In this document: positions 7,109 to 50,655 of the stretch, one piece after another
How the letters are laid out: every line of letters begins with the position of its first letter
How positions within the stretch are numbered: position 1 is the stretch's first letter
DNA from: a virus
Virus record (IMG/VR): IMGVR_UViG_3300032235_000623
Location: 44,850 to 108,849 of that record
Reading direction: 5' to 3' (one strand)
DNA length: 64,000 bases
The notes under the pieces: generated by a model
Seen by the model: only the letters and a program-made list of their open reading frames with translations
Databases searched by the model: none
What the model was told of the DNA's origin: nothing
Made by a program: the position numbers and the translations under genes

Positions 7109-7232
7109 ATATTCTATTAAAAAAGAACAAAAGTGCTACTACTGCACTGAGGAAGGTCTTTATTTTGACTATGCTGATTATAGATGTATAAGTGTTTGTA
7201 AAAATCATTTAAATATGGAAGCCTCAAGCTAA
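7101..7232 (+). CDS. Tiny zinc-finger-like protein
   Basis: The 43-residue product has CYYC near residues 12-15 and two later Cys plus a His (CISVCKNH), enough for one zinc site. Its stop overlaps the P450 start (TAATG), so it is probably translated together with the P450. Confidence 0.55.
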   Translation: MSKYSIKKEQKCYYCTEEGLYFDYADYRCISVCKNHLNMEASS

Positions 7233-9264: not shown

Positions 9265-9267
9265 GAT

Positions 9268-9948
9268 ATGACTAAAATTTATGCAATAGGTGACTGCCAC
9301 CTATCAAGAGTGCAGGAACATTATAATCCAAGCGAAAGCGATGTGGATTTTGTTATATGGGGCAAGGCTGCGAAGAAGATATGGGACATTAATTTTGCAG
9401 AGATGCTGACGCTGGACGAGGTATCCTCTGGTAAAGAGCAGCAAAGATTTGATGGAGACGGTGTAACGCTATTTAGCCAAATTAAAGATGAAGATATATT
9501 GTTCGCATGGTTTGGATATGTTGATATTAGAACATTTTTATCTAAATATAACAATGCTGATGAGGTTGCTAAAAGGTATGTAGATCAGCTTAAATCTTAT
9601 TTTAAAAATTCTTTAATTGTTATTATAGAGCCTCTACCTCAGTTTACTGAAATGTTATTAAAGTACGAAGGTATTAGTCCATCATATACATATGAAGAAA
9701 GATTGAACCAAAATAAACTCTTTATAGAGTCTTTGCACAAATATGCATCAGATGCAGGAATTACACATTTTATAACTCAAGACGATATAAAAAAGGCCAT
9801 AGGAAGCGATGAGTTAACGCCTGCTATGACTCACACAAAAGCCCCTCACCCAGTTGATGGCTTGAAGGACGAATATAACCAAAATATATTTTTCTTGTTT
9901 GAAAGATATGCCAAAAAAATTATAGAGGAGAACTTTAATGACAACTAA
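9268..9948 (+). CDS. SGNH-hydrolase-like protein
   Basis: The 226-residue product begins IYAIGDCHLSR, which looks like the block-I loop of SGNH/GDSL hydrolases with Cys where the nucleophilic Ser is usual (GDS to GDC). A beta strand IIEPLP near residue 120 and a C-terminal HPVDGL near 190 could supply the late Asp/His block in altered form. It could be an O-acyl esterase or a non-catalytic relative. It overlaps the following 2OG oxygenase start by 11 bases, so they are co-translated. Confidence 0.6.
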   Translation: MTKIYAIGDCHLSRVQEHYNPSESDVDFVIWGKAAKKIWDINFAEMLTLDEVSSGKEQQRFDGDGVTLFSQIKDEDILFAWFGYVDIRTFLSKYNNADEVAKRYVDQLKSYFKNSLIVIIEPLPQFTEMLLKYEGISPSYTYEERLNQNKLFIESLHKYASDAGITHFITQDDIKKAIGSDELTPAMTHTKAPHPVDGLKDEYNQNIFFLFERYAKKIIEENFNDN

Positions 9949-10489
9949 CCACGAAATGGTAACAGATAAAATTGTACAGTTTAATGATGTATTTGAGGAC
10001 TTGGATGCTGTAGTTTCCAAGGTAGAGTCTGGATCCTGGGAGCACTGGGGTAGAGCAAATAATGAACGTGTTGGAACATTAAGATGGATCTATAAGATAG
10101 AAGGCTATCTTTATAATGAAATTAATTCAGCTGTTACAAAAGCAGCAGACGAATATTTTGAGAACCAATCTATTAAAAAGAATGAGTATATGTTTTCGAA
10201 CAGCTCATATCATATTAGAAAATGGGATGCACCAATGAGAGGCATGGAGCCTCATTCAGACTTTTCAGCAAATGAGGATGGAAGCAGAAGCAACCCCTCA
10301 TACACCATATGTGGTTATATCACAGAGGATTACGAGGGCGGGCACCTAGAATTTCCTAAGCACAACATATCTATTAAGCCAAAAGCTGGATCTATTATAA
10401 TATTTCCATCTGATGAATGGCACGGAGTTTCTGATGTAATAAGCGGAAATAGAATGATGTTTAGCTTATTTATACATAAAACCCATTGA
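9938..10489 (+). CDS. 2OG-Fe(II) oxygenase (prolyl-4-hydroxylase-like)
   Basis: The 183-residue product has a double-stranded beta-helix core with the iron ligands His106-Ser-Asp108 (PHSDF) and His162 (EWHGV). Arg172 (GNR) is placed to bind 2-oxoglutarate. DYEGGHLEFP between them is the conserved strand seen in every paralogue in this window. A GAGGAG ribosome-binding site precedes the ATG. It closes the oxidative cassette. The substrate may be a protein side chain or a small molecule. Confidence 0.88.
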   Translation: MTTNHEMVTDKIVQFNDVFEDLDAVVSKVESGSWEHWGRANNERVGTLRWIYKIEGYLYNEINSAVTKAADEYFENQSIKKNEYMFSNSSYHIRKWDAPMRGMEPHSDFSANEDGSRSNPSYTICGYITEDYEGGHLEFPKHNISIKPKAGSIIIFPSDEWHGVSDVISGNRMMFSLFIHKTH

Positions 10490-36471: not shown

Positions 36472-38826
36472 ATGGCAACAGTAAGAATTCAATTAAGAAG
36501 AGGCACAGCAGCAGAATGGACAGCTGCAAATCCTGTATTGGCCGCAGGCGAAATGGGTCTGGAGACAGACACAGGCGATTTTAAATTTGGTGATGGCTCA
36601 TCAGCCTGGGGTGCTTTAAGCTATTCTCTAGGCAATGCAATTGATGACTATATCCCGCTTTCAGAAAAGGGTAATCCAGATGGAGTTGCAACACTTAACT
36701 CACAAGGATTAATTCCTGTAGAGCAGTTGCCAGCAGCTGCAGCCCTAGAAGTTGAGGTAGCATCTTCAATTTCAGATCACAATTCAGATACCACAAACGT
36801 ACACGGTATTACTGATACATCTATTCTTGTAACAACAACAGGAAATCAAACTTTAACCTCTAAGAGCTTGACATCACCAGCTCTTACAGGAACACCAACT
36901 GCCCCTACTGCAAATGTTGGAACAGACACAACTCAAATTGCAACAACAGCATTCGTTCAGGATGCAATTGAGGCAGTTGTTGGAGCAGCACCAGAAGCAT
37001 TGAACACCTTAGCAGAAATTGCTACATCCCTAAATGATGACGCAGATCTAGCTGGTACACTAACCACATCAATTGGTACAAAGGTCTCAAAGGCTGGAGA
37101 TACAATGAGCGGGGTTCTTGATATGGGCTCTAACAAGGTAACAAACCTTGGAACACCTACATCAAATTTTGATGCTGCAAGCAAGTATTATGTAGATTCA
37201 AGAGTAGCTGGAGATGTCGGCGACCACAATGATTTAACAACAAATGTACATGGTATTGGAGACACAGCTGATCTAGTTTTGACATCAGACTCTAGACTAT
37301 CAGACGAAAGAACACCACTTAATGATTCTGTAAGCACTGCAAAGCTAAGCAATAATGCAGTTGCAACAGCAAAGATTGAAAATGGCGCAGTTTCAGCAGA
37401 TAAAATTGGAACAGATGCCGTAACAGAAGTTAAGATAATTAATGGAGCAGTTACAGCAGCAAAGATTGCTGACTACGCAGTTACAACAGAAAAAATTGCT
37501 GATTTAAATGTAACAGAGTCAAAACTTAATACAGGATCTGTAACTGAAGACAAAATTGCAACAGATGCAGTAACAGAATTAAAGATTGCTGACGGTTCAG
37601 TAACATCTGCTAAAATTGCATCAAGCGGAGTAGAGACAGCAAATATTGCTGGTCTAGCCGTAACAGATGCAAAGATTGCTGACGATGCAGTTACAACAGC
37701 AAAAATTGCTGATTCAAACGTAACAGAGTCAAAGATTAATACAGGAGCAGTAACTGAAGGTAAAATTGGAGCTGGCGCAGTAACAGAATTAAAGATTGCA
37801 GATGGCTCAGTAACCTCAGCAAAGATTGCTAATGGAACAATTGTCGATGGAGACATTTCAACAGTAGCAGCAATTGCTCAGTCAAAGATTGATGGACTTA
37901 CATCTGATCTTGCTGCCAAGGCGCTAGATTCAGATTTAGATGCACACACATCAGCAACAACTTCAGTTCATGGCATTGCTGACACTTCAGTACTTGCAAC
38001 AGATTCTGAAGTAGCTGCTGCACAGACTGCAGCGCAAAATTTTGCAACATCTGCAATCTCAACACACAATTCAGACACAACAAATGTGCATGGAATAGTT
38101 GATACGAGCAAGCTTGTTACAACAGATGCACAGTCTACAACTTTAGATGGAGCATTAACAGTTCAGGGAGACCTTACTGTTAATGGTACAACATTTAGCG
38201 CATCTGCAACATCTATTACAATTGAAGATAATATGGTTCAGCTTGCTCATCAAAATTCAGCAAATACAGTAGACTTAGGTCTTGTAGTTGCATATAACGA
38301 TGGAACAGCTAAGCATGCAGGTATTGTAAGAGATGTATCTGACTCTAAGTGGAAGCTTTTCAAGGGTGTTACAACAGAGCCATCAACTACAGTTGACTTT
38401 ACACAAGGATCACTCGATGACCTTGCAGTAGCAGGACTTACTGCAACAACAGTAACACCATCATCTGGTGTAGTGTTTACAGATGGAACACAGACAAAAG
38501 CTGGAGTACCATCAATAACACCAATAACAGAAAAGACATCAAACTATACACTTTCAAGTCTTTCTGAAAGAGACACTCTTATTGAGGTAAACCACACAGG
38601 AGGATCTGCCGTAACTATCACAGTTCCAGCTGACTCTTCAGTAAATTACCCAGTAGGAACATCCATAGATATTTTAAGAACAAATACTGGAGAAGTAACA
38701 ATTGCTGGCTCAGGTGCTACAATTAATGCTACACCAGGCTTAAAGTTAAGAGCTCAGTGGTCAAGCGCAACTCTATTTAAGAGAGCAGCAAACACATGGG
38801 TATTATTCGGAGATCTAAAGGCATAA
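36472..38826 (+). CDS. Large tail fibre with 10-residue repeats
   Basis: The 784-residue product starts with VRIQLRRGTAAEWTAANPVLAAGEMGLETDTGDFKFGDG, a fibre-head or tropism-determinant N-terminal module. It has HNSDTTNVHG repeats, and at about residues 286-470 many decapeptides of form (T/D)AVTxAKIADG, which probably form a regular beta or coiled shaft. It ends in a beta tip. Likely the main receptor-binding fibre. Repeat-rich DNA here can expand or contract. Confidence 0.82.
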   Translation: MATVRIQLRRGTAAEWTAANPVLAAGEMGLETDTGDFKFGDGSSAWGALSYSLGNAIDDYIPLSEKGNPDGVATLNSQGLIPVEQLPAAAALEVEVASSISDHNSDTTNVHGITDTSILVTTTGNQTLTSKSLTSPALTGTPTAPTANVGTDTTQIATTAFVQDAIEAVVGAAPEALNTLAEIATSLNDDADLAGTLTTSIGTKVSKAGDTMSGVLDMGSNKVTNLGTPTSNFDAASKYYVDSRVAGDVGDHNDLTTNVHGIGDTADLVLTSDSRLSDERTPLNDSVSTAKLSNNAVATAKIENGAVSADKIGTDAVTEVKIINGAVTAAKIADYAVTTEKIADLNVTESKLNTGSVTEDKIATDAVTELKIADGSVTSAKIASSGVETANIAGLAVTDAKIADDAVTTAKIADSNVTESKINTGAVTEGKIGAGAVTELKIADGSVTSAKIANGTIVDGDISTVAAIAQSKIDGLTSDLAAKALDSDLDAHTSATTSVHGIADTSVLATDSEVAAAQTAAQNFATSAISTHNSDTTNVHGIVDTSKLVTTDAQSTTLDGALTVQGDLTVNGTTFSASATSITIEDNMVQLAHQNSANTVDLGLVVAYNDGTAKHAGIVRDVSDSKWKLFKGVTTEPSTTVDFTQGSLDDLAVAGLTATTVTPSSGVVFTDGTQTKAGVPSITPITEKTSNYTLSSLSERDTLIEVNHTGGSAVTITVPADSSVNYPVGTSIDILRTNTGEVTIAGSGATINATPGLKLRAQWSSATLFKRAANTWVLFGDLKA

Positions 38827-38836
38827 GGAGCAAACA

Positions 38837-40198
38837 ATGGCAATTAATAAAAGATCGGGTACAGGTTCTTCAGCACAAGATAACTTTATTGGACCAAATC
38901 CAGTAACAGGTCTAACAGCTACAAATGTAGGGTCTGGTAGATCATACAACGATGGCAGAATTGACTTATCTTGGACAAATCCTACAAATGGCAATACGCC
39001 AACAGGATATAAGATTATTAGAGGCGGTACAGAAATTGCAACTGTTTCTCATCCAAATAATACTTATTCAAATACAGGCTTATCGTCTAATACAGGCTAC
39101 TCTTATGTAGTTCGTGCTTACGATGATTATGCTACATCTGCTGATTCAAATACAGCAACAGCAACCGCAACAACAGTTCCAGCTACAATGAGCTCTCCAA
39201 CTGCCACCGCAGGAGTAGACAAAGATACGCTTTCTTGGTCAGCGCCTGCAGATGGTGGATCAGCCATCACGCTATATAGATGGACATCAAGCGACGGAAA
39301 GTCTGGAACATTTTCAGCAGGCTCAACATCTGGTGATGTATCTCAAGAAGCAAATACGGCTCAAACATATCAGATTAGAGCAGAGAATCTAAATGGAGCA
39401 GGAGTATATTCAGGAAATTCAAATTCTGTAACTACACAGGCACCAAGCTTCTTCGGACCTCCTAGCTTCTTCTCGCCTCCAGGATTCTTCGGACCACCAA
39501 ACTTCTTCGGTCCTCCAGGATTCTTCGGACCACCAAACTTCTTTGGTCCTCCAAGCTTCTTCGGTCCTCCAGGATTCTTCGGTCCTCCAGGATTCTTCGG
39601 TCCTCCAGGATTCTTCGGTCCTCCAGGATTCTTCGCACCACCATCATTCTATAAGAGCGTTGGAATCAATACTCTTCTTAGAACACCTACAGGAATGATT
39701 TCTGCAGGACAAATTGAGGTGGGAGATGAAGTTATAGGATTGCGTATCCCAGGGATACCAGATAACTTCTGGCTTCTAGATGACGGATCAGGTGGAACAT
39801 ATTCTGATTATGTTATTACTCAAGAACAGATTGATAATGCAGAAGAAACTGTTGTTACTGTTCAAGGAAAAGCTCTTCACGAGAATTCTGGAGCAGTAGT
39901 AGTAAATGGTGATATTTATACACTTCATCACTATATCTTGGCTAAAAGAGATAATGATATTAGAGTCTTAAACGTTTCTGATTTAGTCAATACAGATTTA
40001 GTTTATAATTATCAGACAAAAGATTTTGTTGCTATAGAGTCTCTTGAAACAAACTCTGAGATAACAATTCAGTCATATTCTATAAACGTAGAGCCTTGGG
40101 ACTTCTACTTTACAGAAAACGGTCTAACTTTTGACATGCAAGCTCTTTCAGAGCATCTGTTTGGATCAAACGATCCAGATGGCCCTGGCCCCCTATAA
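38837..40198 (+). CDS. FN3 - FFGPPG repeat - Hint-like tail protein
   Basis: The 453-residue product has two FN3-like domains (about 20-110 and 115-200), eleven hexapeptide repeats FFGPPG/N/S (205-270) and a C-terminal domain (about 274-435) with Hint-type blocks: [13 protein letters not shown]...VGDEVIG, a TLHH motif at 362-365, [12 protein letters not shown] and a closing YFTENGLTF strand. Block A starts with Ser274 in place of Cys and the terminal HN is missing, so splicing is unlikely, although N-terminal cleavage is possible. It precedes the oxygenase cluster. Gly-Pro-Pro repeats resemble prolyl-hydroxylase substrates. Confidence 0.75.
39449..39646 (+). repeat. Eleven tandem 18-bp repeats (FFGPPG)
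   Basis: Eleven consecutive 18-bp units, TTCTTCGGTCCTCCAGGA with variants, encode FFxPPx hexapeptides without interruption. Several adjacent units are identical, suggesting recent slippage or gene conversion. Confidence 0.95.
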
Positions 40199-40199
40199 T
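40194..40199 (+). promoter_or_regulatory. -10 box TATAAT at gene junction
   Basis: TATAAT overlaps the stop of the FN3/Hint gene and lies eight bases before the GTG at 40208, compatible with a two-base leader. Confidence 0.4.
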
Positions 40200-40207
40200 C
40201 AATATAG

Positions 40208-40750
40208 GTGAAATTTAAAATAACCAGTACTGGTGAGGAGATAGAGAAATCTATCTCCTATCAGTCTTTTCCAGATGAACTTTATAAAGAAGGAATTTGG
40301 GGTCATTTTGCATTTATAGAAAATAGAGAAATGAATATACGGGTAATATGTTCTGCTTATAATAATGATAGATATTTACCAGGTACTGTTGTTGTTTCTA
40401 ATAAAATATTTAATGATTTCCCTATTGCTCAGAGTGCTTGGAATATAAATAATAAAATTAGCCGTATGTACGTAGACCCATTTTATAGAAGCAAAAAAGT
40501 TGCAACATATAGTGTTATAACAAATGACATGTTGGCTAGAAAAATGGGTTACGAGATATGGTCCAACATATATGGAGAAAGAGGCGGAACCCTTGCGGGA
40601 GACCAACTATATAATAGAATATACGAGCTAGGTTTTGAGAATGTGAAAGTAGATATAGATCCTAATGACATTTTCCAGTATAGAAATTTTTCTCATCCAA
40701 TACACTACATAGATAAGAGGCCAGTATACGATGAATCAACTTTACAGTAA
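40208..40750 (+). CDS. GNAT-like acetyltransferase (tentative)
   Basis: The 180-residue product has ISRMYVDPFYRSKKVATYSVITNDMLARKMGYEIWSN, laid out like the beta4-alpha3 acetyl-CoA loop of GNAT proteins (VDPxxRxxxV) with a later YxxxGFE. A GTG start follows TATAG. It may modify a tail protein or a metabolite. The assignment is tentative because the usual Q/RxxGxG/A motif is degenerate. Confidence 0.5.
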   Translation: MKFKITSTGEEIEKSISYQSFPDELYKEGIWGHFAFIENREMNIRVICSAYNNDRYLPGTVVVSNKIFNDFPIAQSAWNINNKISRMYVDPFYRSKKVATYSVITNDMLARKMGYEIWSNIYGERGGTLAGDQLYNRIYELGFENVKVDIDPNDIFQYRNFSHPIHYIDKRPVYDESTLQ

Positions 40751-41303
40751 AACAAAGTTTATAAAAAAGAATATTGATATTGATTTTGATTTAGAAGACA
40801 TTAAAAATATGTCTTTTAAAAAAGATGAGTTGTTTTTTGTTAAAGATGGCGACCTTAACAAGGAAAATGAAATTATCCATAAATCAAAAAATATATTTAC
40901 AACATACTCTAGCAGCTCATATAGTTTATATAAAGGTATATCTTATTTGTTAAGAGAAGCTTGTCTTTTGTATGACATAAATAAAGATGTACAGGACTAT
41001 ATGATCTACGGCAAGATTTCAAAGTATGGGGATTATAATAAAGGAATATGGTATGATTTCCCAGGAATTAATATACCATACCTTCACGGATTCTTTTTCT
41101 TTGACTCCAGCTATGAGGTAAACTTTAAGAATCAAAATAATTTAGTTACAGAAAAAGTAGAAGGCAATACAGTTATTATTAACAAGCCAACTGATTTAAT
41201 AAATATTAAATCAGAAAAAGACTCAGAAATTATTGAGTTCTATATAGTTCCAAACGATATGCTTAAACATAATGAACCAGGTGTATGGGTTCCAATTCTA
41301 TAG
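40731..41303 (+). CDS. Hypothetical protein, possible beta-helix fold
   Basis: The 190-residue product is Lys/Asp/Tyr-rich. Its second half (FFFFDSSYEVNFKNQNNLVTEKVEGNTVIINKP) has the strand spacing of the jelly-roll paralogues nearby but no His-x-Asp. It overlaps the preceding gene by 20 bases. Unknown function. Confidence 0.5.
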   Translation: MNQLYSKTKFIKKNIDIDFDLEDIKNMSFKKDELFFVKDGDLNKENEIIHKSKNIFTTYSSSSYSLYKGISYLLREACLLYDINKDVQDYMIYGKISKYGDYNKGIWYDFPGINIPYLHGFFFFDSSYEVNFKNQNNLVTEKVEGNTVIINKPTDLINIKSEKDSEIIEFYIVPNDMLKHNEPGVWVPIL

Positions 41304-41309
41304 TAGAAA

Positions 41310-41318
41310 TGATATAAT
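41310..41318 (+). promoter_or_regulatory. Extended -10 TGATATAAT
   Basis: TGA-TATAAT, leader about 15 bases with AGAGG before the ATG at 41340. It may drive the whole oxygenase cluster. Confidence 0.55.
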
Positions 41319-41339
41319 ATACAAAAGAAAAGAGGCAGT

Positions 41340-42038
41340 ATGTTAGAAAATGCAGAATTTTTAGCCATGGGCGTTGTTGTCTATAGAAATGCTTTTAAGG
41401 ACAGCGCAGAATATATTCAGAGAATTGAGAGTGCTCTTGGTTCAGAAGAAAATACAAAGTACGGTTGGAAGCCAGGTTATACTGGGTACGGAGCAAAAAA
41501 TCTAAATTATAGAGACTGTGTAGATTTTAAGATTAAATATAATCAGGATGGCTCACTTAGTGCACATATGGACTGTGTTCAAAAAGATGACTTAACTGAT
41601 ATTGATAGAGATTTAATTAGAATTTGGGAAGATGCATATTACGCACAACTTGGTCCAGTAGACGACTATCGTAATATGTTTGGGCTTGCACCATTGAAGT
41701 ATTGGGAATCATTTAATTTTATTAAGTATGGTCCAGGACAGCACTTCCAGGTTCACTCAGATCATGGATATTCATATACATGTGTGCTTTCTTCAGTAGG
41801 ATATCTGAATGATGATTATGAGGGCGGAGAGTTGTTCTTTGACAAGCTAAATCTTAAGATTAAGCCAAAGGCTGGAGATCTTTATCTTTTCCCATCATCA
41901 TATGTATATTCACATGCAGCAATGCCAGTTACATCAGGGACAAAGTACTCTATAGTAACGATGTTAGATTACTTAGAAACAGCACACACTCCAGAATACA
42001 GGGATCTAGAGTCTAGATATTCTAAAAGCCTATTGTAA
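41340..42038 (+). CDS. 2OG-Fe(II) oxygenase
   Basis: The 232-residue product carries His139-Ser-Asp141 (QVHSDHG) and His192 (YSHAA), with Lys202 (GTKYS) where most paralogues have Arg. Lys at this place is the 2OG anchor in collagen prolyl-4-hydroxylases. NDDYEGGELFF is conserved. It is the first gene of the tail-linked oxygenase run. Confidence 0.88.
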   Translation: MLENAEFLAMGVVVYRNAFKDSAEYIQRIESALGSEENTKYGWKPGYTGYGAKNLNYRDCVDFKIKYNQDGSLSAHMDCVQKDDLTDIDRDLIRIWEDAYYAQLGPVDDYRNMFGLAPLKYWESFNFIKYGPGQHFQVHSDHGYSYTCVLSSVGYLNDDYEGGELFFDKLNLKIKPKAGDLYLFPSSYVYSHAAMPVTSGTKYSIVTMLDYLETAHTPEYRDLESRYSKSLL

Positions 42039-42733
42039 TGTATTCAATTACAGGGTATCAGATATCTGAATCTGCTGATATCTATCCTTCCCCAGTAAAA
42101 AGAGACTGGATGGATAGTACTCATGATAGGCATGCCTATAATTGTTTTCCAGTAACCATAACAAATTCTTTAGGCTGGAGCGTATCATTTCCAGAAGAGA
42201 TATCATTTATTTGGGATGGAATATCTGATAGCTCATCCGAACACGTCAAGGTGCTATCTGGAGAGAAATATGTGTCTACAAGACGTGCAAATGGCACTAT
42301 AAGCTTTAATGCAGGACTTGGATTTCAAACAGATTCAAATTTAAGTCTTTTATGCATACCAACTCCAAATTTGTTTACAAGAGGCGCACAGTGTTTTACA
42401 ACATTAATCAGCACTTCTTTTTTTCATGGAGATTTTCCAATTGTATGGAAAATTACTGAGCCTATGCACAAGATCACCATTCCAGCAAATACGCCAATTG
42501 CAAATATCATTCCAATATCTTTAACTGAGTTGCAAGGTTCAGAAATTAATTTTAAAAGTCTAGAAGAAATGCCTCCAAGCAAATGTGATGACGCAACAAC
42601 AATGAAGGCTATAAACGATATAGTTTCTTCTGGAAATTGGACAAATTTTTATAGGGATGCAGTAGATGCTTGTGGCAATTCCATTGGGGAGCATGAAGTA
42701 AAGTCGATAAGATTAAGAGTTAATAATGCCTAA
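42038..42733 (+). CDS. DUF6065-like hypothetical protein A
   Basis: The 231-residue product shares a layout with the next gene: Pro-rich N-terminus (SADIYPSPVKRDW), LLCIPTPNLFTRG, and MHKITIPANTPIANIIPISL. In the paralogue the matching part is LYVHPLNRFDLPF and EGLIPKGTPFVQIIPFK. I recall this from DUF6065-like beta-sandwich proteins beside oxygenases, but it is only a recollection. It overlaps the oxygenase stop. Confidence 0.5.
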   Translation: MYSITGYQISESADIYPSPVKRDWMDSTHDRHAYNCFPVTITNSLGWSVSFPEEISFIWDGISDSSSEHVKVLSGEKYVSTRRANGTISFNAGLGFQTDSNLSLLCIPTPNLFTRGAQCFTTLISTSFFHGDFPIVWKITEPMHKITIPANTPIANIIPISLTELQGSEINFKSLEEMPPSKCDDATTMKAINDIVSSGNWTNFYRDAVDACGNSIGEHEVKSIRLRVNNA

Positions 42734-43439
42734 AATAACATTTCATTCAAATAAAGTATATAATCAACCAGGAGATCAACTAAATCCACAGCCAGCAAAA
42801 AAAGCTGTCCCCCAGTGGTTTTCTGAATCTAGCAGATATTGGTTTCCAGAAAATAAAGATTCTCTTTCGTTTAAAGCATGCCCAGCTTTAGTTGACGCAT
42901 TTTTATGCGGGTATGTTTTAAAAACACCATGCGATATTTATTTTTATAAAGAGTCGTACTCAGACGTATTTAAACATACAGATACATTTAAAGTTGTAAA
43001 AGAGCCAGGGTATGATGATTTTTGTTGTTCAAGACCAGACATGCAAGGTTTTCCAAAGCCCCATGGATTTGATAAACACTTCCACTGGTTTCCTAATTGG
43101 ATGCCAGGCCTAGAGCCTGGTTATAGTGCTTTATATGTACATCCACTAAATCGTTTCGATCTACCGTTCACTACCATCTCTGGTATAATTGATAACGATA
43201 AGATGGATACTCCTGGCTTAATGCCATTTTTCTTAAAAGAAGGTTTTGAGGGGTTGATTCCAAAAGGAACTCCCTTTGTTCAAATAATTCCTTTCAAGAG
43301 AGAAGACTGGGAGTCAGAAGAAAAGATGTACTCAATAGAAGAGATTTACGAAAGACATAATTATCAAGCAAATAAATTTAGAGTCCCAGAAGGCGGGGCT
43401 TATAAGAAAAAAGTTTGGTCAAGAAAGAGGTACGATTAA
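42726..43439 (+). CDS. DUF6065-like hypothetical protein B
   Basis: The 237-residue product has QPAKKAVPQWFSESSRYW, a Cys/aromatic middle and HPLNRFDLPFTTISG followed by KGTPFVQIIPFKRE. It is a paralogue of the preceding protein. The family may be a cupin-like or jelly-roll partner of 2OG enzymes. It overlaps neighbours on both sides. Confidence 0.55.
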   Translation: MPKITFHSNKVYNQPGDQLNPQPAKKAVPQWFSESSRYWFPENKDSLSFKACPALVDAFLCGYVLKTPCDIYFYKESYSDVFKHTDTFKVVKEPGYDDFCCSRPDMQGFPKPHGFDKHFHWFPNWMPGLEPGYSALYVHPLNRFDLPFTTISGIIDNDKMDTPGLMPFFLKEGFEGLIPKGTPFVQIIPFKREDWESEEKMYSIEEIYERHNYQANKFRVPEGGAYKKKVWSRKRYD

Positions 43440-44158
43440 TGAATATGAAGGTTTGGGATACAAGCGGTAACCTAGCAAACTATAATGCAAAATCTATAAC
43501 TCCATCAGGATTTTTTGGAACTTCAGATAAAAATATTGTAGAGGTTGAAAACTTTATAACAGAAGAAGAAAACGAAGTGTACCTAGAATTTGCAAGAAAA
43601 AATTCTTCTTTTGACGATACTCCAACTGAGTTTAATGAAAATGGAAATGTTATATATGATGAAAGACCGTGGGTTAACAGAGTAGCTACTGGGGATAACT
43701 TATTAAAAAATGGAGCACACGTCATACCAGTTTTAACAAAAATGGTAGAGCGTTTTCAAAAGGTTATTGAGGAGTTCTTTGAAGTAGAGGTAATACCAAC
43801 TGGACCAGCTATTGTTAGATGGCCAGTAAATGCTAGACAAGAGCCTCATGCTGATAAAGAGTTGCATGAAGGTCCAGATGCAGGTAAGCCAAATTCTTTC
43901 CCATGGTATGATCTTGGAACTGTATTTTATTTTAATGATGACTATGAAGGCGGAGAATTATACTTTCCAAAACAAGGAATTGAGTTCAAGCCAAAAGCAC
44001 GAGCTGTTTATTTCTTCCCAGGTGATATGAATTATATACATGGAGTTAGACCAATAACTAAGGGTTGTAGGTATACTGCTCCATATTTTTGGACGATTAC
44101 AAAGTTGCCAGAAAAGTATAACGGCCCAAAGGAGTTTAAGTATGAGCCAAATAACTAA
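43439..44158 (+). CDS. 2OG-Fe(II) oxygenase
   Basis: The 239-residue product has His137-Ala-Asp139 (EPHADKE), His201 (YIHGV) and Arg211 (GCRYT) with NDDYEGGELYFP between them. The ATG at 43439 overlaps the previous stop (TAATG), so an upstream in-frame GTG/ATG is rejected. Prolyl-hydroxylase-like. Confidence 0.9.
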   Translation: MNMKVWDTSGNLANYNAKSITPSGFFGTSDKNIVEVENFITEEENEVYLEFARKNSSFDDTPTEFNENGNVIYDERPWVNRVATGDNLLKNGAHVIPVLTKMVERFQKVIEEFFEVEVIPTGPAIVRWPVNARQEPHADKELHEGPDAGKPNSFPWYDLGTVFYFNDDYEGGELYFPKQGIEFKPKARAVYFFPGDMNYIHGVRPITKGCRYTAPYFWTITKLPEKYNGPKEFKYEPNN

Positions 44159-44861
44159 GCATAAAGAAGAATGTTTTACCATTGAAAACTTTTTAACAGA
44201 GCATGAGTGCAAAGCAATAATAGCTTATACAGAGTGGCTTGTAGCAAACAATATACTTGAGTGGAACCAAATCTCATTCTATGATTCATATGCTATGGGT
44301 TTTTGGCCATATGACGATAATCTTGAATACTTTGGATTACCAAAAAATTATTTCCATGATGTTTTAAAATTAAAAATTAAAGATGCTTGTGAAAATGTTC
44401 TAGGTAAAGATGTAGCAGAAGTTAGCTATCATGCCCAAAAATGGTTGCCAGGGGCATACGCATCTTTTCATTCAGACAACTCTGACGAAGATGGTAACCC
44501 AACAGAATTTGAAAGAAGTAAGTATGCTGCATTTATATATTTAAATGAAGACTTCTCTGGAGGTTATTTAAACTTTAAGCATCATGATGTTCATATAGAT
44601 CCAAAACAAGGCATGTTAGCTATATTTGCTGGAGGACATACTAATGAGCATGAGGTCACTAAGGTTCACGGTGGAACAAGATATACAATTGGATCTTTTT
44701 GGGATAACGCTGATATAGAGTACACTGAAGAGCAGATTAAAGAGCGTGAAGAAAGACTAAAAAAGACTAGAGCGGATCAAGATGAAATGTATAGAAAGTG
44801 GCAAGAAGAAAAAGAAAATGGCATTGTCCAAGAGTACACTGGAAAGTATGGTGAGAAGTGA
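44142..44861 (+). CDS. 2OG-Fe(II) oxygenase
   Basis: The 239-residue product has His110-Ser-Asp112 (SFHSDNS), His170 (NEHEV) and Arg180 (GTRYT), with NEDFSGGYLNF as the conserved strand. A long charged C-terminal helix (190-239) is unique among the paralogues and may bind a partner. It overlaps both neighbours. Confidence 0.9.
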   Translation: MSQITKHKEECFTIENFLTEHECKAIIAYTEWLVANNILEWNQISFYDSYAMGFWPYDDNLEYFGLPKNYFHDVLKLKIKDACENVLGKDVAEVSYHAQKWLPGAYASFHSDNSDEDGNPTEFERSKYAAFIYLNEDFSGGYLNFKHHDVHIDPKQGMLAIFAGGHTNEHEVTKVHGGTRYTIGSFWDNADIEYTEEQIKEREERLKKTRADQDEMYRKWQEEKENGIVQEYTGKYGEK

Positions 44862-45715
44862 ATAAGATAGAGATCTATCCAAGGGTGGTTGTTTATAAAA
44901 ACACATTGCCAAGATGGAAAGAGTATATAGAATTATTGAAAAGATCAGAGTCTGAGCCACCAAGATATTATTTCCAAGACTGGGAAGACTGGTATGGATT
45001 TGGCAGAATGATGAATCTATCAATGAAGCATCCAGGTGTGCCTTACGAAGTAAACTCTGATGATGAATATGCATTGCTTCAAAAAGATTTTCTGCAAGAT
45101 GTAACTAATGCATACTACGCAGCAAGCGCAGACTACGTACAGACATATGGTATATCTTTACCTAATTGGGTAAATAATGGAATATCTATTTGCAAGTATT
45201 GGGAAAGCCCAAAACAAAATACAATGGCAATGCATTATCACACAGACTATGTTGGTGCTAATGCATCCGCCCCAGGCAAAAAATTTGCTATAACGTGCAC
45301 AATTTATATAAATGACGACTACGATGGTGGCGGATTATCGTTTTTGAGAGAAGATACTGGAGACGTTATTGACTATAAGCCAGAAGCTGGCGACATAGTT
45401 GTGTTCCCATCAGGAGACCCAGTAACTGGGGCATCTCATTATTTTCACGGTGTTGATAGAGTCGATAATGGCGAAAAGTACTTCATTAGATGCTTTTGGT
45501 CTTATGAGTTTGAAGGCACAAAAGAGTGGCACGAAGGTGTAGAAAAATATGGTCAGGATGTATGGGAAGAAATGCAGCTTGAAAATATGAAGCAGGAGAT
45601 AAAGTCTGGTAAGTGGCATAGGTATCTAGTCATGCCTGGGGAAGAGGATCCAAAAATAGAAAAATCTACTCCATTCTTTTTAAGGAGCAATGATGCTTAT
45701 AAAAAGATTAGATGA
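44858..45715 (+). CDS. 2OG-Fe(II) oxygenase
   Basis: The 285-residue product is the longest copy: His128-Thr-Asp130 (MHYHTDY), His197 (HYFHGV) and Lys207 as the likely 2OG anchor, with NDDYDGGGLSF. An extended N-terminal part and a C-terminal KSGKWHRYLVMPGEE segment are added. Start is GTG overlapping the previous stop. Confidence 0.88.
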   Translation: MNKIEIYPRVVVYKNTLPRWKEYIELLKRSESEPPRYYFQDWEDWYGFGRMMNLSMKHPGVPYEVNSDDEYALLQKDFLQDVTNAYYAASADYVQTYGISLPNWVNNGISICKYWESPKQNTMAMHYHTDYVGANASAPGKKFAITCTIYINDDYDGGGLSFLREDTGDVIDYKPEAGDIVVFPSGDPVTGASHYFHGVDRVDNGEKYFIRCFWSYEFEGTKEWHEGVEKYGQDVWEEMQLENMKQEIKSGKWHRYLVMPGEEDPKIEKSTPFFLRSNDAYKKIR

Positions 45716-46307
45716 AAATATTGTTTACTATGAGAATGTTTTAGAAAATCCATATTCTTTTTTAGAAAAAATTGAAGAGCTAGATTCAAGTAATTCAAAC
45801 ATATCGCATTTAAGTAAGTGGGAAAAGTGGAGTGCTAGTAATTCAGATAAGCAGTATGGAATTACTAAAAATGGAACATTTTCTAATATGCAGTATGTTA
45901 CAGAAGCAGACATAGAGACATCTTTTATATCTTATAAGATAAAAGCAATAACAGACCTATGTTTTGCAAACTATAGACACCTTACTGGAGCAGAAATGCT
46001 AAAGCTGCCAGATTATTTTAGTATTAGAAAATATGATACTGGTGCAGATATGGGCAGACATGTTGACTCTGAAGATCCAACCGATAAGTCTCACCCAGTT
46101 GTTTCTGGAGTGCTTTATCTAAATGATGATTATGAAGGCGGAGAAATTTATTTTCCAGAACAGAATATAAAGATTAAGCCTTCTGCGGGAAGCATGATAA
46201 TGTTTCCTTCCTATCGTCCATATTTTCATCATCCGTTAGAGATAACTAACGGTAATAAATACATGGTACCATTCTTCTGGTACCCATTAGAAACGGTTTG
46301 GGAATAA
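45690..46307 (+). CDS. 2OG-Fe(II) oxygenase
   Basis: The 205-residue product has His124-Val-Asp126 (RHVDSED), His180/His181 and Lys190 (GNKYM), with NDDYEGGEIYFP. TTTTAAGGAGC precedes the ATG. It is the last intact copy of the run. Confidence 0.88.
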   Translation: MMLIKRLDENIVYYENVLENPYSFLEKIEELDSSNSNISHLSKWEKWSASNSDKQYGITKNGTFSNMQYVTEADIETSFISYKIKAITDLCFANYRHLTGAEMLKLPDYFSIRKYDTGADMGRHVDSEDPTDKSHPVVSGVLYLNDDYEGGEIYFPEQNIKIKPSAGSMIMFPSYRPYFHHPLEITNGNKYMVPFFWYPLETVWE

Positions 46308-46314
46308 ATGAATA

Positions 46315-46974
46315 ATGAAAGCAAAACAAAATTTTTGGTCAGCGCTATACGAAAGGTCACAGCCTAAAATGATGTACTTACCTAACATACTAGATGACAA
46401 ATGTGTTTATTTTAGAAATACAATTTCAGAGCCACATAAACTAATAGAGTTTATTGAAGAGTGCGAAAACGATAAGTCTACTCATAAATATATATCAAAC
46501 TGGGCGAGTCTTAGTAACGGAGTAGAATTTAAAAAGTTTTTATTAGAAGATGGTGAAATGTCTGAAAGAATGAAGCAGAAAGTTCTATATATTTACAATA
46601 GCTTTCAGGCAGGAATTAATTATTGCAAAGAACACTATTCTAATTTTGCAATGAAGGATACAACATCAACAAAACCACTGTATCTTTTTAAGTCAAAGCC
46701 ATTAAGTAGTGTTCAAAGAGATCAAGAGTATAGTATTCCTTCAGGCCCAGAGTCTGTGTCAGTTTACCTAATGATGAATACAGAGGCAGATGGTAGAGCT
46801 TTTTGCGTAAACAAAGAAAGAAGCATCTACATATATCCTGAGCCTTGGAGCATAATTATGATTCCAGATAATCTTTCTCATTCAGAAGGAATTAATGCCA
46901 ATAATGATTTGTATTACTTAAAAACAAAGTTTGAGTTAGGTCCAGAAAAGCTGCAATGCAGTAATCTGCTATAA
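46315..46974 (+). CDS. Degenerate 2OG-oxygenase-like protein
   Basis: The 219-residue product keeps the strand order of its neighbours (PGPESVSVYLMMNTEADGRAFC, then EPWSIIMIPDNLSHSEG) but the first iron ligand is lost: the HxD position reads Gln134-Arg-Asp136. His189 remains. It is probably inactive, acting as a binding or scaffold subunit, or is decaying. Open reading frame is intact. Confidence 0.65.
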   Translation: MKAKQNFWSALYERSQPKMMYLPNILDDKCVYFRNTISEPHKLIEFIEECENDKSTHKYISNWASLSNGVEFKKFLLEDGEMSERMKQKVLYIYNSFQAGINYCKEHYSNFAMKDTTSTKPLYLFKSKPLSSVQRDQEYSIPSGPESVSVYLMMNTEADGRAFCVNKERSIYIYPEPWSIIMIPDNLSHSEGINANNDLYYLKTKFELGPEKLQCSNLL

Positions 46975-46981: not shown

Positions 46982-48664
46982 ATGTCTTATTCCAGAAACG
47001 TATTAAAAGATTACCCTATTGGGTTTTGGGAGCTTTCCGAAAATGCCTTAGACGGCTCTGGCTGCGGTAATGACGCAGTGGTTTCTGGAACGCATTATAT
47101 AGATGGATTTAGCCTTCATCCTTCAATTGGTGGGTATACAAGAATTAAAGGAAACTCTTATGTTTCCATGCCAATAGATAAAGATTACTATTCGGATACA
47201 AACCTTCCACCAATTGCAAACTCTTCAAGCTCCAGAAATGAATTTTCTTTAGAGCTTTGGTTTAAAGCAGAAGATAACCTTATTAGTGAAACTCCTTTAT
47301 TCGCAGATGTAAATGCAGATACGGGTATATTCTACGAGCAGGGAAATATTATTTTTAAGGTTGAAGGAGAATCTGTAGAGTATACGCTAACAGAGATCAA
47401 CAGAGCACATCATGTAGTTGGTGTATATTCTGGCAATGATATATCAATATTCATCAATGGCGATATTGCAGCAAATAAAATTTTAAATAGCTTCAGGTTT
47501 AGCTCTGAAGATGTTGATTTTCAGGTTGGTCCAGTAGTAGATAGCAATGCCTCATTTCTAGTAAATGGGGTAGCTGTATATAGATATGCACTTAGCCTAA
47601 ATCAAATATATGATCATTTTTATCAGGTAAACAATATTCCGCCAATTCAAATTGCTGATCCAGACAACGGATTTATATTCCAGATCAAGAATAGCGCAAG
47701 TGGGAAAAGGTTTACATTTGATTACCCAATAAATAAAAATTGGTCAGACGTTGTAGAAAGCCCTGTAGAATTTAATGATGCTAAAGGGTATGTAGAACTA
47801 GGCAAAGCGGACGGGGAAGTCTCTAAGGAGCTCCTAGACGTTATATCAGTACCTTCTATTGAAGAGTACGAACACTCTATTATAGAGTGGGTTGGAGATA
47901 ATGGGGTATCCGTAAAGATATCACAAAATAATGTTGACTTTTATGACTGTATAAATGGAATGCCTTTACCAATTCAAGATAATACTAAATCTATTATTTA
48001 TTTAAAGATAATATTCCAATCATCTAATGCACAAAGATTTAATCCAAGACTATATTCATTATCCATTTCTTTCTTTAATGGATTAAGGCTGTACGCATCT
48101 AATAGTGCTGACTACATATCCTCTTCTTCTACGGGAGGAAGTGACTTTGGTTTCACGTGGAACAATTGGCCAATTCTTTCAAGATATAGCCTTAATGGTT
48201 TAAGGGCAGGATCAGAGTTTAGCATTTATACAGATAAGGACGTATATTCCCTTGAGATGTTCTACACACCAACCGAATTGTCTGAGAGCTCATTATTTGA
48301 CCAGCTATCCTGGAACGGGGCGGGAGCCCTAAGCAAATCAAACATCCTAGCCCTATATATCAATGGAGAAGATAAGACATCAGAAACCTCAGTATCTGGC
48401 TTATTTATACCTGGAGAGATATATCACGTAGTAGCAGTATTAAATAATTCAATGACAGGGGAGATTGTCTTCAATGGGGACAATGAGGCCCTATATCAAT
48501 ACATTACGATATATGAGAGCCAATTGAGTTCAGGTACTGCCCAGGCTCATTATGAGTTGTATACTAATAGTGTCTCTACTATTGCCGACGGCTCGTCACT
48601 TGCACTGACAGAAAACTCTGTAAATTACTACAATAATGATTGGGTTGTAATACAAAGCATATAA
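46982..48664 (+). CDS. LamG/concanavalin-like structural protein
   Basis: The 560-residue product begins YPIGFWELSENALDGSGCGNDAVVSGTH, then FSLELWFKAEDN and HHVVGVYSGNDISIFING. This is the core of a LamG-like carbohydrate-binding jelly roll (about 1-215). A second beta domain of similar type is near 370-510. It likely binds glycans on the host surface as a virion tip or decoration protein. Confidence 0.78.
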   Translation: MSYSRNVLKDYPIGFWELSENALDGSGCGNDAVVSGTHYIDGFSLHPSIGGYTRIKGNSYVSMPIDKDYYSDTNLPPIANSSSSRNEFSLELWFKAEDNLISETPLFADVNADTGIFYEQGNIIFKVEGESVEYTLTEINRAHHVVGVYSGNDISIFINGDIAANKILNSFRFSSEDVDFQVGPVVDSNASFLVNGVAVYRYALSLNQIYDHFYQVNNIPPIQIADPDNGFIFQIKNSASGKRFTFDYPINKNWSDVVESPVEFNDAKGYVELGKADGEVSKELLDVISVPSIEEYEHSIIEWVGDNGVSVKISQNNVDFYDCINGMPLPIQDNTKSIIYLKIIFQSSNAQRFNPRLYSLSISFFNGLRLYASNSADYISSSSTGGSDFGFTWNNWPILSRYSLNGLRAGSEFSIYTDKDVYSLEMFYTPTELSESSLFDQLSWNGAGALSKSNILALYINGEDKTSETSVSGLFIPGEIYHVVAVLNNSMTGEIVFNGDNEALYQYITIYESQLSSGTAQAHYELYTNSVSTIADGSSLALTENSVNYYNNDWVVIQSI

Positions 48665-48727: not shown

Positions 48728-49075
48728 ATGGATATCAAAAGAACTGGTTTTAAAATCAATGATCACGAGACAACCCTCGGAATATATGTCTGGGAAATGC
48801 CAGATGGACGCTGGATTGGCGACGATGACGGAAACTTTCTTTCTATAACTGCAAAAGAAGGCAATAGAGAAAGAATGAATTTGTTAGCAGATGCTGTTAG
48901 GTCTTACGGAATCTACGAAGGCAAGCCAAAGTTCCTTTCTGGCAGAAGAAAGATTGATGACGAAGAATTTGAGTATCAGCAACAAAGATTAAGATGGGGC
49001 CTAACTCCAGATCCTTTGGACATCGGAGTTTATAAAGATGAAATGAAGGCTCTAAAGAATAGCGGTGGAAAATGA
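48728..49075 (+). CDS. Conserved small protein before port portal
   Basis: The 115-residue product (MDIKRTGFKINDHETTLGIYVWEMPDGRWIGDDDGNFLSI...) is alpha/beta and acidic. TAGAAT (48713-48718) lies nine bases upstream. Its stop overlaps the portal start, so it may assist portal or packaging. Family not named. Confidence 0.6.
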   Translation: MDIKRTGFKINDHETTLGIYVWEMPDGRWIGDDDGNFLSITAKEGNRERMNLLADAVRSYGIYEGKPKFLSGRRKIDDEEFEYQQQRLRWGLTPDPLDIGVYKDEMKALKNSGGK

Positions 49076-50655
49076 TAGAATTTGAAGACGACATGGGTAG
49101 CTCTAACGAAGTAGAAATAACAAACACTTCTGACTGGATGAAGTTTTCTTCTGCACCAGTTCAGAAAACAAATGATCCGTTCCGTGTAGAGAATGACGAC
49201 CTGCTAAAGATTTCTGGAATCTCTCCAACCTTCAGAAGAAAAGTAAGTAGAGATTTACAAAAACGATTTGCAGGAATTGACGGTGCTGAAACTCAGCAAA
49301 ACCTACTTCAGCAAGCGGTAACTGGCTATGCAATGTTTGATTTGGTTGAGCCACCGTACAACCTAGAGTACCTATCTTCAATTTATGAAATTTCCCCATA
49401 TAATTACGCTGCTATTAATGCCAAGGTTGCAAACATTGTTGGCTTAGGTTTTGATTTTATTGAGAGCAGAAAAACAAACGATGCTTTGGATGAAATTGAA
49501 GATGATAAGCAATTAGAAAGAGCAAGAAGAAAGCTTAGTAGAATCAGACAAGATCTTCATGAGTGGCTGGAAGATTGTAACGAAGAAGAAACATTTAAAG
49601 AAACATTAATAAAGTTCTACACCGATGTAGAAGCAACAGGAAACGGGTACTTAGAAATAGGTAGAACCACATCTGGAAAGATTGGTTATATTGGACATAT
49701 TCCAGCAAAGACAATGAGAGTTCGTCGTCTTCGTGACGGATTTATTCAGTTGCTTTATGGAAAGGCAGTTTACTTTAGAAACTTTGGAGATCAGGAAACA
49801 CCAAATCCGATTGCAGGTGGATTAGATAGACCTAACGAAATTATTCATTTAAAGAAGTACACTCCAAAGAATAACTATTATGGAATTCCAGATATCATTG
49901 CTGCACAGAATGCGATGGCAGGTAATGAATTTGCTGGAAAGTACAACTTGGACTATTTTGAAAATAAGGCTGTACCAAGATATATTATTACAGTCAAGGG
50001 TGCAAAGCTTTCATCTGAGTCAGAGAGAAAGCTTCTTGAGTTTTTCCAAGTTGGACTAAAGGGCAAAAATCATAGATCTTTGTATATACCCCTTCCAGCA
50101 GACTCACCAGATTCTAAGGTTGAATTTAAGATGGAGCCAATTGAGGCGGGTTCACAGGAGTCATCATTTAACGTTTATAGAACTGCAAACAGAGATGAAA
50201 TATTAATGGCTCACAGAACTCCAATTAATAAAATTGGTACACCAGCTGGAGTTAATTTAGCTACAGCAAGAGATGCAGATAAGACTTTTAAAGAGCAGGT
50301 ATGTAGACCAGCTCAAGAAAATCTTGAGAAGAAATTAAATAAAATCATTGAAGAAATGACAGATGCGCTTAAATTAAAATTTAATGAGCTTACTCTTACA
50401 GATGAAGATACTCAGTCAAAAATTGATGAAAGGTATTTGCGTTTCCAGGTTTTGACTCCGAATGAAATTAGACTTAGAATGGGCTTAGTCCCTAGAGAAG
50501 GCGGAGACAGCCCTGTTGACTTACAGGCGCAGGCAGCTGAAGTAAAATCTCAAGCATTACAAACTAGAACTAGAGACCAGGAAAGATCTGCAAATTCCCC
50601 AGATTCTTCAGGAGAAGGTAGAAATGCAAAGGGAGACGGAAGACAGGTCGAGTAG
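49072..50655 (+). CDS. Portal protein
   Basis: The 527-residue product has the layout of actinophage/SPP1-type portals: ISPYNYAAINAKVANIVGLGFDFIE near 110, YLEIGRTTSGKIGYIGHIPAKTMRV near 190, IIHLKKYTPKNNYYGIPDIIAAQNA near 260 and GLVPREGG near the end, with a disordered Arg/Ser C-terminus. It forms the dodecameric DNA channel at the capsid vertex. It precedes the protease and capsid genes. Confidence 0.92.
   Translation: MIEFEDDMGSSNEVEITNTSDWMKFSSAPVQKTNDPFRVENDDLLKISGISPTFRRKVSRDLQKRFAGIDGAETQQNLLQQAVTGYAMFDLVEPPYNLEYLSSIYEISPYNYAAINAKVANIVGLGFDFIESRKTNDALDEIEDDKQLERARRKLSRIRQDLHEWLEDCNEEETFKETLIKFYTDVEATGNGYLEIGRTTSGKIGYIGHIPAKTMRVRRLRDGFIQLLYGKAVYFRNFGDQETPNPIAGGLDRPNEIIHLKKYTPKNNYYGIPDIIAAQNAMAGNEFAGKYNLDYFENKAVPRYIITVKGAKLSSESERKLLEFFQVGLKGKNHRSLYIPLPADSPDSKVEFKMEPIEAGSQESSFNVYRTANRDEILMAHRTPINKIGTPAGVNLATARDADKTFKEQVCRPAQENLEKKLNKIIEEMTDALKLKFNELTLTDEDTQSKIDERYLRFQVLTPNEIRLRMGLVPREGGDSPVDLQAQAAEVKSQALQTRTRDQERSANSPDSSGEGRNAKGDGRQVE

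Follow-up and report, generated by a model that had tools for sequence, protein, structure and literature searches.

Hydroxylation of proteins by prolyl hydroxylases is known mainly from eukaryotes and algal viruses. Paramecium bursaria Chlorella virus-1 (PBCV-1), an algal virus, also encodes such an enzyme, vCPH (5c5t), and evidence for 4-hydroxyproline in its viral proteins is mentioned as a cited result in a survey of Baltic Sea viruses (Eriksson et al. 1999, cited in PMC9301287). According to this survey, prolyl 4-hydroxylase ranks with the more abundant auxiliary genes in the water column, and its use by viruses "remains cryptic" (PMC9301287). Cyanophage 2OG-Fe(II) oxygenases (phrog_61) belong to the same superfamily as the enzymes described here and are 35-41% identical over about half of the protein or less, but many of them adjoin a primase-helicase and not a tail repeat. 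In the phages analyzed here, in contrast to PBCV-1, up to five orthologous enzymes adjoin one aromatic-diproline tail repeat. Such enzymes are thus paired with a definite, repetitive and tail-borne sequence as candidate substrate, and for this reason substrate, residue and purpose are directly testable. If the interpretation given below is true, a class of supposed metabolic genes would be re-filed as tail-building enzymes, and phages would possess a counterpart to this hydroxylation of proteins.

The window is a stretch of 64,000 nucleotides of the virus record IMGVR_UViG_3300032235_000623 (positions 44,850 to 108,849). Judged from portal similarity, backbone order and a WhiB gene, the virus is an actinophage relative of the Stanwilliamsviridae. 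The portal is 57% identical to that of the Streptomyces phages BillNye and StarPlatinum of this family, and the order of the backbone genes around the portal is the same. However, in these phages the interval from the RNR-like gene to the portal contains no block of FN3 tail and oxygenases. The phages bearing the repeat are freshwater viruses of bacteria.

Features of the tail-oxygenase block and its surroundings (positions within the window)
Feature	Position	Strand	Evidence
Upstream tail-fibre-type protein, Mtd_N domain	36472..38826	+	PF18454, E 2.2e-16
Tail protein: FN3 N-terminal part, FF(x)PP(x) array, C-terminal part	38837..40198	+	PF00041, 453 aa
FF(x)PP(x) array, residues 205-270	39449..39646	+	TRF and unit count
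180-aa protein, no family assigned	40208..40750	+	gene maps of relatives
190-aa protein, no family assigned	40731..41303	+	homologs in PP-less relatives too
OX1, core oxygenase, H139xD141...H192...K202	41340..42038	+	PF13640, 1.4e-15
DUF6065 protein, conserved, between OX1 and OX2	42038..42733	+	PF19541, 4.8e-31
phrog_7084 protein, faintly DUF6065-like	42726..43439	+	phrog_7084, 2.6e-32
OX2, core oxygenase, H145xD147...H209...R219	43415..44158	+	PF13640
OX3, oxygenase, H110xD112...H170...R180	44142..44861	+	PF13640
OX4, oxygenase, H128xD130...H197...K207	44858..45715	+	PF13640
OX5, oxygenase, H124xD126...H180	45690..46307	+	PF13640
OX6, degenerate oxygenase-like protein without HxD	46315..46974	+	23.6 bits
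Laminin_G_3 (lectin-like) protein, end of block	46982..48664	+	PF13385, 1.1e-11
Portal protein, backbone marker for tree	49072..50655	+	phrog_12, 1.7e-55

The tail protein, for which 51 relatives were found, contains an FN3 domain (PF00041, 1.2e-6) and is proposed as the candidate substrate of the oxygenases. A preliminary description of this DNA had counted eleven FFGPPG-type repeats in it and placed the enzyme run within 1.2 kb downstream. Both statements hold: the array consists of exactly eleven FF(G/S/A)PP(G/S/N) units, and the first oxygenase starts 1,142 nt past the tail stop. The unit string reads [42 protein letters not shown] x4 FFAPPS, and TRF detected the array independently (18-bp period, 10.4 copies, score 234). 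No unit departs from the Phe and Pro positions, while their codons differ (CCT/CCA, TTC/TTT). Position 3 of the unit is Gly in 9/11, Ser in 1/11 and Ala in 1/11 cases, and position 6 is Gly in 6/11, Ser in 3/11 and Asn in 2/11, which interrupts the Gly-X-Y run in some units. The array contains no Lys. By eye, the C-terminal part of the protein appears Hint-like. The Mtd_N protein is a conserved neighbour of the repeat gene with syntenic homologs in relatives. The 180-aa protein has no match in Pfam, PHROG or NCBIfam; it looks acetyltransferase-like by eye only and is missing from some relatives.

OX1 to OX5 match PF13640 with E values from 1e-15 to 3e-6 (28.7-58.5 bits, cut-off 27). The Fe(II) triad HxD...H is at least 90% conserved in all five ortholog groups. 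The basic residue at H+10, assigned to 2OG, is conserved in OX1 to OX4 (K202, R219, R180 and K207), and the Lys of OX1 matches the aligned stretch of the Bacillus anthracis prolyl 4-hydroxylase (P4H); across the OX5 group this position is less than 90% conserved. OX6, known from close relatives only (6 members), is probably inactive because it is a weak relative without the HxD motif. OX3 is present in essentially every cassette and OX4 is absent from 7/51 scored cassettes; the best explanation is that OX1 and OX2 form a core pair, which OX3, OX5 and usually OX4 join in larger cassettes. Three additional PF13640 matches in the genome all lie outside the tail-oxygenase block. For the DUF6065 protein, a PDB sequence search gave nothing significant, and the confidence of the structure model (pLDDT 35.8) was too low for use. 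The phrog_7084 protein is missing from some cassettes and shows a weak profile match to DUF6065 (probability 39).

Among solved structures, those nearest to the oxygenases are for the most part protein prolyl hydroxylases and collagen hydroxylases. The P4H of B. anthracis (3itq, 5hv0) is the closest solved sequence to OX1, OX2 and OX5 (7.6e-7, 1.9e-5 and 2.7e-4), the best match of OX3 is prolyl 3-hydroxylase 1 (0.0012), and the PDB search with OX4 gave no significant match (best E 0.4). OX1, the only enzyme modelled, is predicted by AlphaFold (pLDDT 85.5) to adopt the prolyl-hydroxylase fold with a double-stranded beta-helix. Its top structural match is an algal P4H with a Ser-Pro peptide (3gze, Z 18.3), and vCPH of PBCV-1 reached Z 16.0. 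The B. anthracis enzyme and the Pseudomonas putida P4H in complex with EF-Tu (4iw3) are also among the closest folds, although the OX1 model is about 20% identical to these two and the substrate here is putative. Most of the top structural rows are prolyl hydroxylases; PF13640 is a broad family, and PiuC-type enzymes, which it takes in, are present among the matches as well. By nearest solved structures, the enzymes most likely belong to the prolyl hydroxylases, in agreement with the preliminary description.

Repeat and enzymes were compared on a portal-protein tree of 68 non-redundant phages, with three or more oxygenases in the stretch from tail to portal counted as a cassette. The repeat FF(x)PP and the cassette agreed in 68/68 phages: 52 had both and 16 neither, the tails of the latter having FxPF or glycine-rich tips. 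Each trait requires 4 changes on the tree; the 3-4 independent contrasts are all concordant and too few for a sign test to reach 0.05. Because independent contrasts are few, shared descent of one module accounts for part of the pattern in the portal family. A search anchored on the FN3 tail, with a query built from PP-less tails and scoring of loci with enough flank, revealed 4-9 oxygenases in 8 kb beside every FF(x)PP tail with flank and 0-2 beside FxPF/FVPY tails (44-158 bits). In the search anchored on OX2, an FF(x)PP ORF was located upstream in 62/63 scorable loci, and the remaining locus is cut at the contig start. FFxPPxFF was found nowhere in 38 PP-less records, 37 of which have a PF13640 count of 0-2. 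The PP-less relatives kept the tail block and lack the cassette; one or two divergent oxygenases share the operon of some of these tails (L038, L371, L420-type). The preliminary description had suggested asking whether relatives lacking the repeat also lack the oxygenases, and whether oxygenase clusters are common without a PP-repeat protein. The former lack the cassette, and none of the latter was found among the scorable OX2-anchored loci.

In a pattern scan, 67/78 FF(x)PP ORFs had an oxygenase within 2 kb compared with 40% of other ORFs of the same loci, a control that is biased because the loci scored are the clusters themselves. For the other 11/78 no oxygenase starts within this distance; several of these are a second repeat protein in a cassette-bearing genome, and a few sit on fragments (L082, L122). 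Judged from the sequences, co-occurrence at one locus is near-perfect and the catalytic motifs are intact.

The pairing extends to at least two phage groups and at least three scaffolds. A small protein of unrelated phages, which do not have this portal, has only the FF(x)PP array in common with the tail protein, and wherever enough flank is present, orthologs of OX2 (39-46%) and of OX1 (44-53%) adjoin its gene. Thus, at the level of sequence, OX1 and OX2 orthologs have re-associated with an unrelated scaffold bearing the same repeat. A third scaffold (L107/L490) has kept the full cassette. Phage isolate records contained no OX2 match over 80% of its length and no match to the tail protein or DUF6065. 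A scan of bacterial genomes for FF(x)PP gave mostly single units among the matches listed; a few longer runs among these look like antisense or low-complexity frames, and the scan gave nothing usable.

Tails with the repeat nearly always have the adjoining enzyme set and relatives without the repeat do not; the enzymes therefore very probably modify the repeat in tail building. We consider it likely that the block encodes a hydroxylation system, probably prolyl, that is dedicated to the aromatic/diproline repeat of the tail tip, with OX1 and OX2 as its core. The block would be a tail-tip module that combines a virion protein as substrate with the enzymes that modify it. [FYW]F-(x)-PP units would be arrayed on this virion protein, and, still in the infected cell, the adjoining oxygenases would use Fe(II), O2 and 2-oxoglutarate to hydroxylate residues of the array, either ahead of assembly or in its course. 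The likeliest sites would be the prolines of the PP pair, and OX3, OX5 and usually OX4 would contribute extra specificities in larger cassettes. From the linkage we infer that the FF(x)PP repeat is the substrate; Pro is presumably the residue modified, different enzymes may take different repeat positions, and the modified array may serve the contact of the tail with the host. A more far-reaching version, which we put forward tentatively, is a maturation line in which up to five oxygenases each act on a different [FYW]F-(x)-PP(x) position and the chemistry of the array that contacts the receptor depends on the make-up of the cassette; the whole would be modular and would have spread across unrelated tail scaffolds and across phage families.

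It is rather unlikely that the repeat is the substrate with a main target other than proline (Phe or the x residues), or with several target residues and an enzyme for each, even though Phe is as invariant as Pro and a six-residue unit is accompanied by five distinct enzymes. OX3 also shows a sub-threshold match to the NCBIfam peptide-maturing oxygenase YhhC (23.8, cut-off 150). Position 6 is Gly in a mean of 13% in cassettes without OX4 compared with 54% (p about 0.002, uncorrected for kinship), a difference that is suggestive only, the set without OX4 comprising seven loci of about four lineages. However, among the nearest solved relatives, those whose protein substrate is known hydroxylate prolyl or lysyl residues, and the array has no Lys. 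We regard as improbable a modification of something else, such as another virion protein, a host glycan or a small molecule, with the linkage to the tail tip reflecting exchange of a host-range block. The related Streptomyces phages do miss FN3 tail and oxygenases as one unit, and further PF13640 genes occur in phage genomes distant from the block; yet PP-less relatives retain FN3 tail, neighbours and portal without the cassette, and the core orthologs rejoin the FF(x)PP array where an unrelated scaffold carries it.

Auxiliary metabolic genes acting on cellular 2-oxoglutarate or nitrogen status, a role proposed for cyanophage 2OG oxygenases (PMC3037559), are the least probable explanation. Phage 2OG oxygenases are usually filed under the PHROG category moron/AMG, but a metabolic role is at odds with the linkage to one repeat sequence, which it leaves unexplained, and these phages are akin to actinophages and not to cyanophages. 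Scarcely more probable is a collagen-type system, in which hydroxyproline would stabilise the array as a triple helix of the Gly-X-Y kind. Several units can be read as GPPGFF, and there is a Pfam match to PF01391 below threshold (21.6 bits, cut-off 27.2). Part of the units in the window nevertheless lack Gly at position 3 or 6, and in most relatives Ala or Ser stands in place of the Gly of the window, or no residue at all, with Gly at position 3 in only about 14% of the FF(x)PP units of relatives. The collagen reading fails because Gly is variable in relatives and Gly-free arrays (FFPPFFPFFPP and [FY]FPP) are still accompanied by the enzymes. Of the original proposal that the oxygenases hydroxylate Gly-Pro-Pro repeats, the association of enzymes and repeat is retained, whereas the Gly-X-Pro rationale is not, since Gly is in the minority in relatives.

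Inspection of the tail ORF, which lies in an IMG/VR virus record of 108,849 bp, bore out the eleven repeats of the preliminary description as well as an enzyme run starting within 1.2 kb of the tail gene. Position 3 of the Phe-Phe-(x)-Pro-Pro units, FF(x)PP, is occupied by Gly (nine), Ser (one) or Ala (one), position 6 by Gly (six), Ser (three) or Asn (two). The Phe and Pro positions are invariant, and the codons for them are variable. Genes for DUF6065 and phrog_7084 proteins are interspersed among the oxygenases OX1 to OX5; beyond them lie a sixth, oxygenase-like ORF that lacks HxD, then a lectin-like protein and finally the portal.

Coordinates of the features in the window
Feature	Position	Description
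Subtilase-family protein	1387-2337	PF00082
Putative oxidative cluster	7232-10489	Cytochrome P450 (PF00067, 8.8e-62) adjoining a luciferase-like monooxygenase (PF00296)
2OG oxygenase	9938	One gene of unknown family past the P450/luciferase-like pair
Tail ORF	38837-40198	FN3 domain and eleven FF(G/S/A)PP(G/S/N) units at residues 205-270
C-terminal part of tail protein	39650-40198	Worn Hint domain likeness, by eye; Ser in place of the expected Cys
OX1-OX5		Five PF13640 oxygenases, the first 1.14 kb downstream of the tail ORF

Viral contigs yielded 51 relatives of the tail protein, with FF-x-PP-x repeats in which x at position 3 is Ala, Ser, Gly, Thr or missing. An HMM was built from the five window enzymes and iterated. 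It detected four to six cassette oxygenases beside FF(x)PP tails with sufficient flank and zero to two weaker matches beside tails with FTPFG repeats instead; synteny is alike in both types of loci, except that the cassette is absent from the FTPFG type. For less biased tests, loci were anchored on the portal, a tail without FF(x)PP or OX2, using the best 80 per scan as samples. In the tail-anchored sample every FF(x)PP tail with sufficient flank, including Gly-free FFPPFFPFFPP arrays, is accompanied by the cassette, and FTPFG, FSPF or FVPY tails have zero to two weak oxygenases; in the portal-anchored sample, tails with glycine-rich tips likewise lack the cassette. Thus, the expectation that relatives without the repeat also lack the oxygenases held for the cassette. 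The reverse case, oxygenase clusters without a PP-repeat protein, was not found among the OX2-anchored loci, since 62 of the 63 scorable ones contain an FF(x)PP ORF upstream and the remaining one is cut at the contig start.

In a tree of 68 non-redundant portals, repeat and cassette agree in every row, with four changes needed per trait (Fisher's exact p = 7e-16, kinship ignored); the three to four independent contrasts are all concordant, a number too small for significance by themselves. FFxPPxFF occurs nowhere in the 38 PP-less records, which contain zero to two PF13640 genes in 37 cases and five in one. Among FF(x)PP phages, 19 records contain 1 to 12 such genes, the record with one being a 15-kb fragment. 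Within the operon of some FSPF/FTPFG tails (L420-L425, L441, L454, L038, L371) lie one or two divergent oxygenases, which may serve the single-Pro repeat.

A DNA pattern scan revealed, among the matches listed, further scaffolds that bear FF(x)PP arrays. The clearest is a protein of 132-150 aa whose N-terminal domain is unrelated, gave no match in a Pfam search and is PASTA-like by eye; in one variant the C-terminal end is an S74 tail-fibre chaperone (PF13884, 6.5e-10). The window-type portal is absent from these viruses. In 35 relatives, an OX2 ortholog encoded on the opposite strand comes after the array, at a distance that is often below 100 nt and never beyond about 2 kb; wherever the flank is long enough, a same-strand OX1 ortholog follows as well. 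Part of these arrays consist purely of [FYW]FPP units. OX1 and OX2 thus track the repeat, and neither the FN3 scaffold nor glycine. The collagen-type Gly-X-Pro rationale originally proposed for the array did not hold, as the cassette is also kept beside Gly-free arrays, and this framing should be abandoned.

Among the matches listed, 78 FF(x)PP ORFs have 2 kb of downstream sequence; an oxygenase starts there in 67 and in none of the other 11. Several of these exceptions are either long proteins whose genome carries an FN3 tail with cassette about 5.5 kb further downstream (both are seen in L066 and L132) or extra copies of the small gene, from records that also contain the OX2/OX1 pair (L092). 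Two fragments of 8.5 and 13.5 kb (L082, L122) carry an FF(x)PP ORF and no PF13640 gene.

Clustering yielded five orthologous groups: OX1, OX2 and OX3 are present in essentially all cassettes, OX5 in almost all and OX4 in the majority. HxD...H is kept in each of the five groups; at H+10, OX1 and OX4 have Lys, OX2 and OX3 Arg. Among solved sequences, OX1, OX2 and OX5 come closest to B. anthracis P4H and OX3 to prolyl 3-hydroxylase 1; lysyl hydroxylase LH3 and PiuC rank behind, and OX4 gave no significant match in this sequence search. The OX1 model (pLDDT 85.5) best matched an algal P4H with bound Ser-Pro peptide (Z 18.3, rmsd 2.3, 168 aligned), followed by Trichoplax PHD, EF-Tu P4H and PHD2, with PBCV-1 vCPH lower; rows within 1 Z count as tied, and the likeness concerns the fold, which is no proof of a common substrate. 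Cassettes without OX4 (L052, L058, L095, L119, L320, L353, L492) have a mean of 13% Gly at position 6 versus 54% (p about 0.002, kinship ignored), a hint that OX4 might read PP-G.

Taken together, FF(x)PP arrays and these oxygenases are strongly linked, and the linkage recurs in a second context. In the simplest mechanism, OX1 and OX2, with helpers, would hydroxylate the array, most likely on prolines. Cyanophage 2OG oxygenases have been linked to nitrogen status or DNA repair (PMC3037559). A Baltic survey described the way in which viruses use prolyl 4-hydroxylase as "cryptic" and mentioned both tail-fibre collagen and the enzyme of PBCV-1 (PMC9301287). The open-access literature searched contained no description of an FF(x)PP-linked cassette.

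The host is likely actinobacterial, since the portal shares about 57% identity with its counterpart in Streptomyces phages (Stanwilliamsviridae) and the record contains a WhiB gene. The phages BillNye and StarPlatinum have the same backbone (glycosyltransferase, RNR-like gene, endolysin, portal), whereas the tail/oxygenase block is absent at that place. For a phage, an oxidative cluster like that of the P450 region would be unusual.

Several tail proteins have a Hint/intein-like C-terminal part (L023, 2530-3012: PF13403 at 2e-4, below the cut-off, end LVHNK); that of the window's tail protein is possibly a worn autoprocessing domain. A long upstream protein of 500-800 aa (L126, L131, L132, L137) has the identical repeat and C-terminal end as FN3 tails (L022, L041, L027, L025), FGSRFIRSY or FGGGFIRIY, with some pairs within one genome, so the end seems to have been copied between two tail genes. 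Of the 35 small FF(x)PP genes, 15 (L552, L555-L563, L570, L572-L575; e.g. L557:5001-5640) have a reading frame that is broken at a single conserved site, GCN-C-GGA (e.g. GCAGCACGGAACAGC). In these, frame 0 reaches a stop some 22 codons in and the homologous domain and repeats carry on in the +1 frame, which looks like a programmed +1 frameshift; other relatives read through this region in a single frame.
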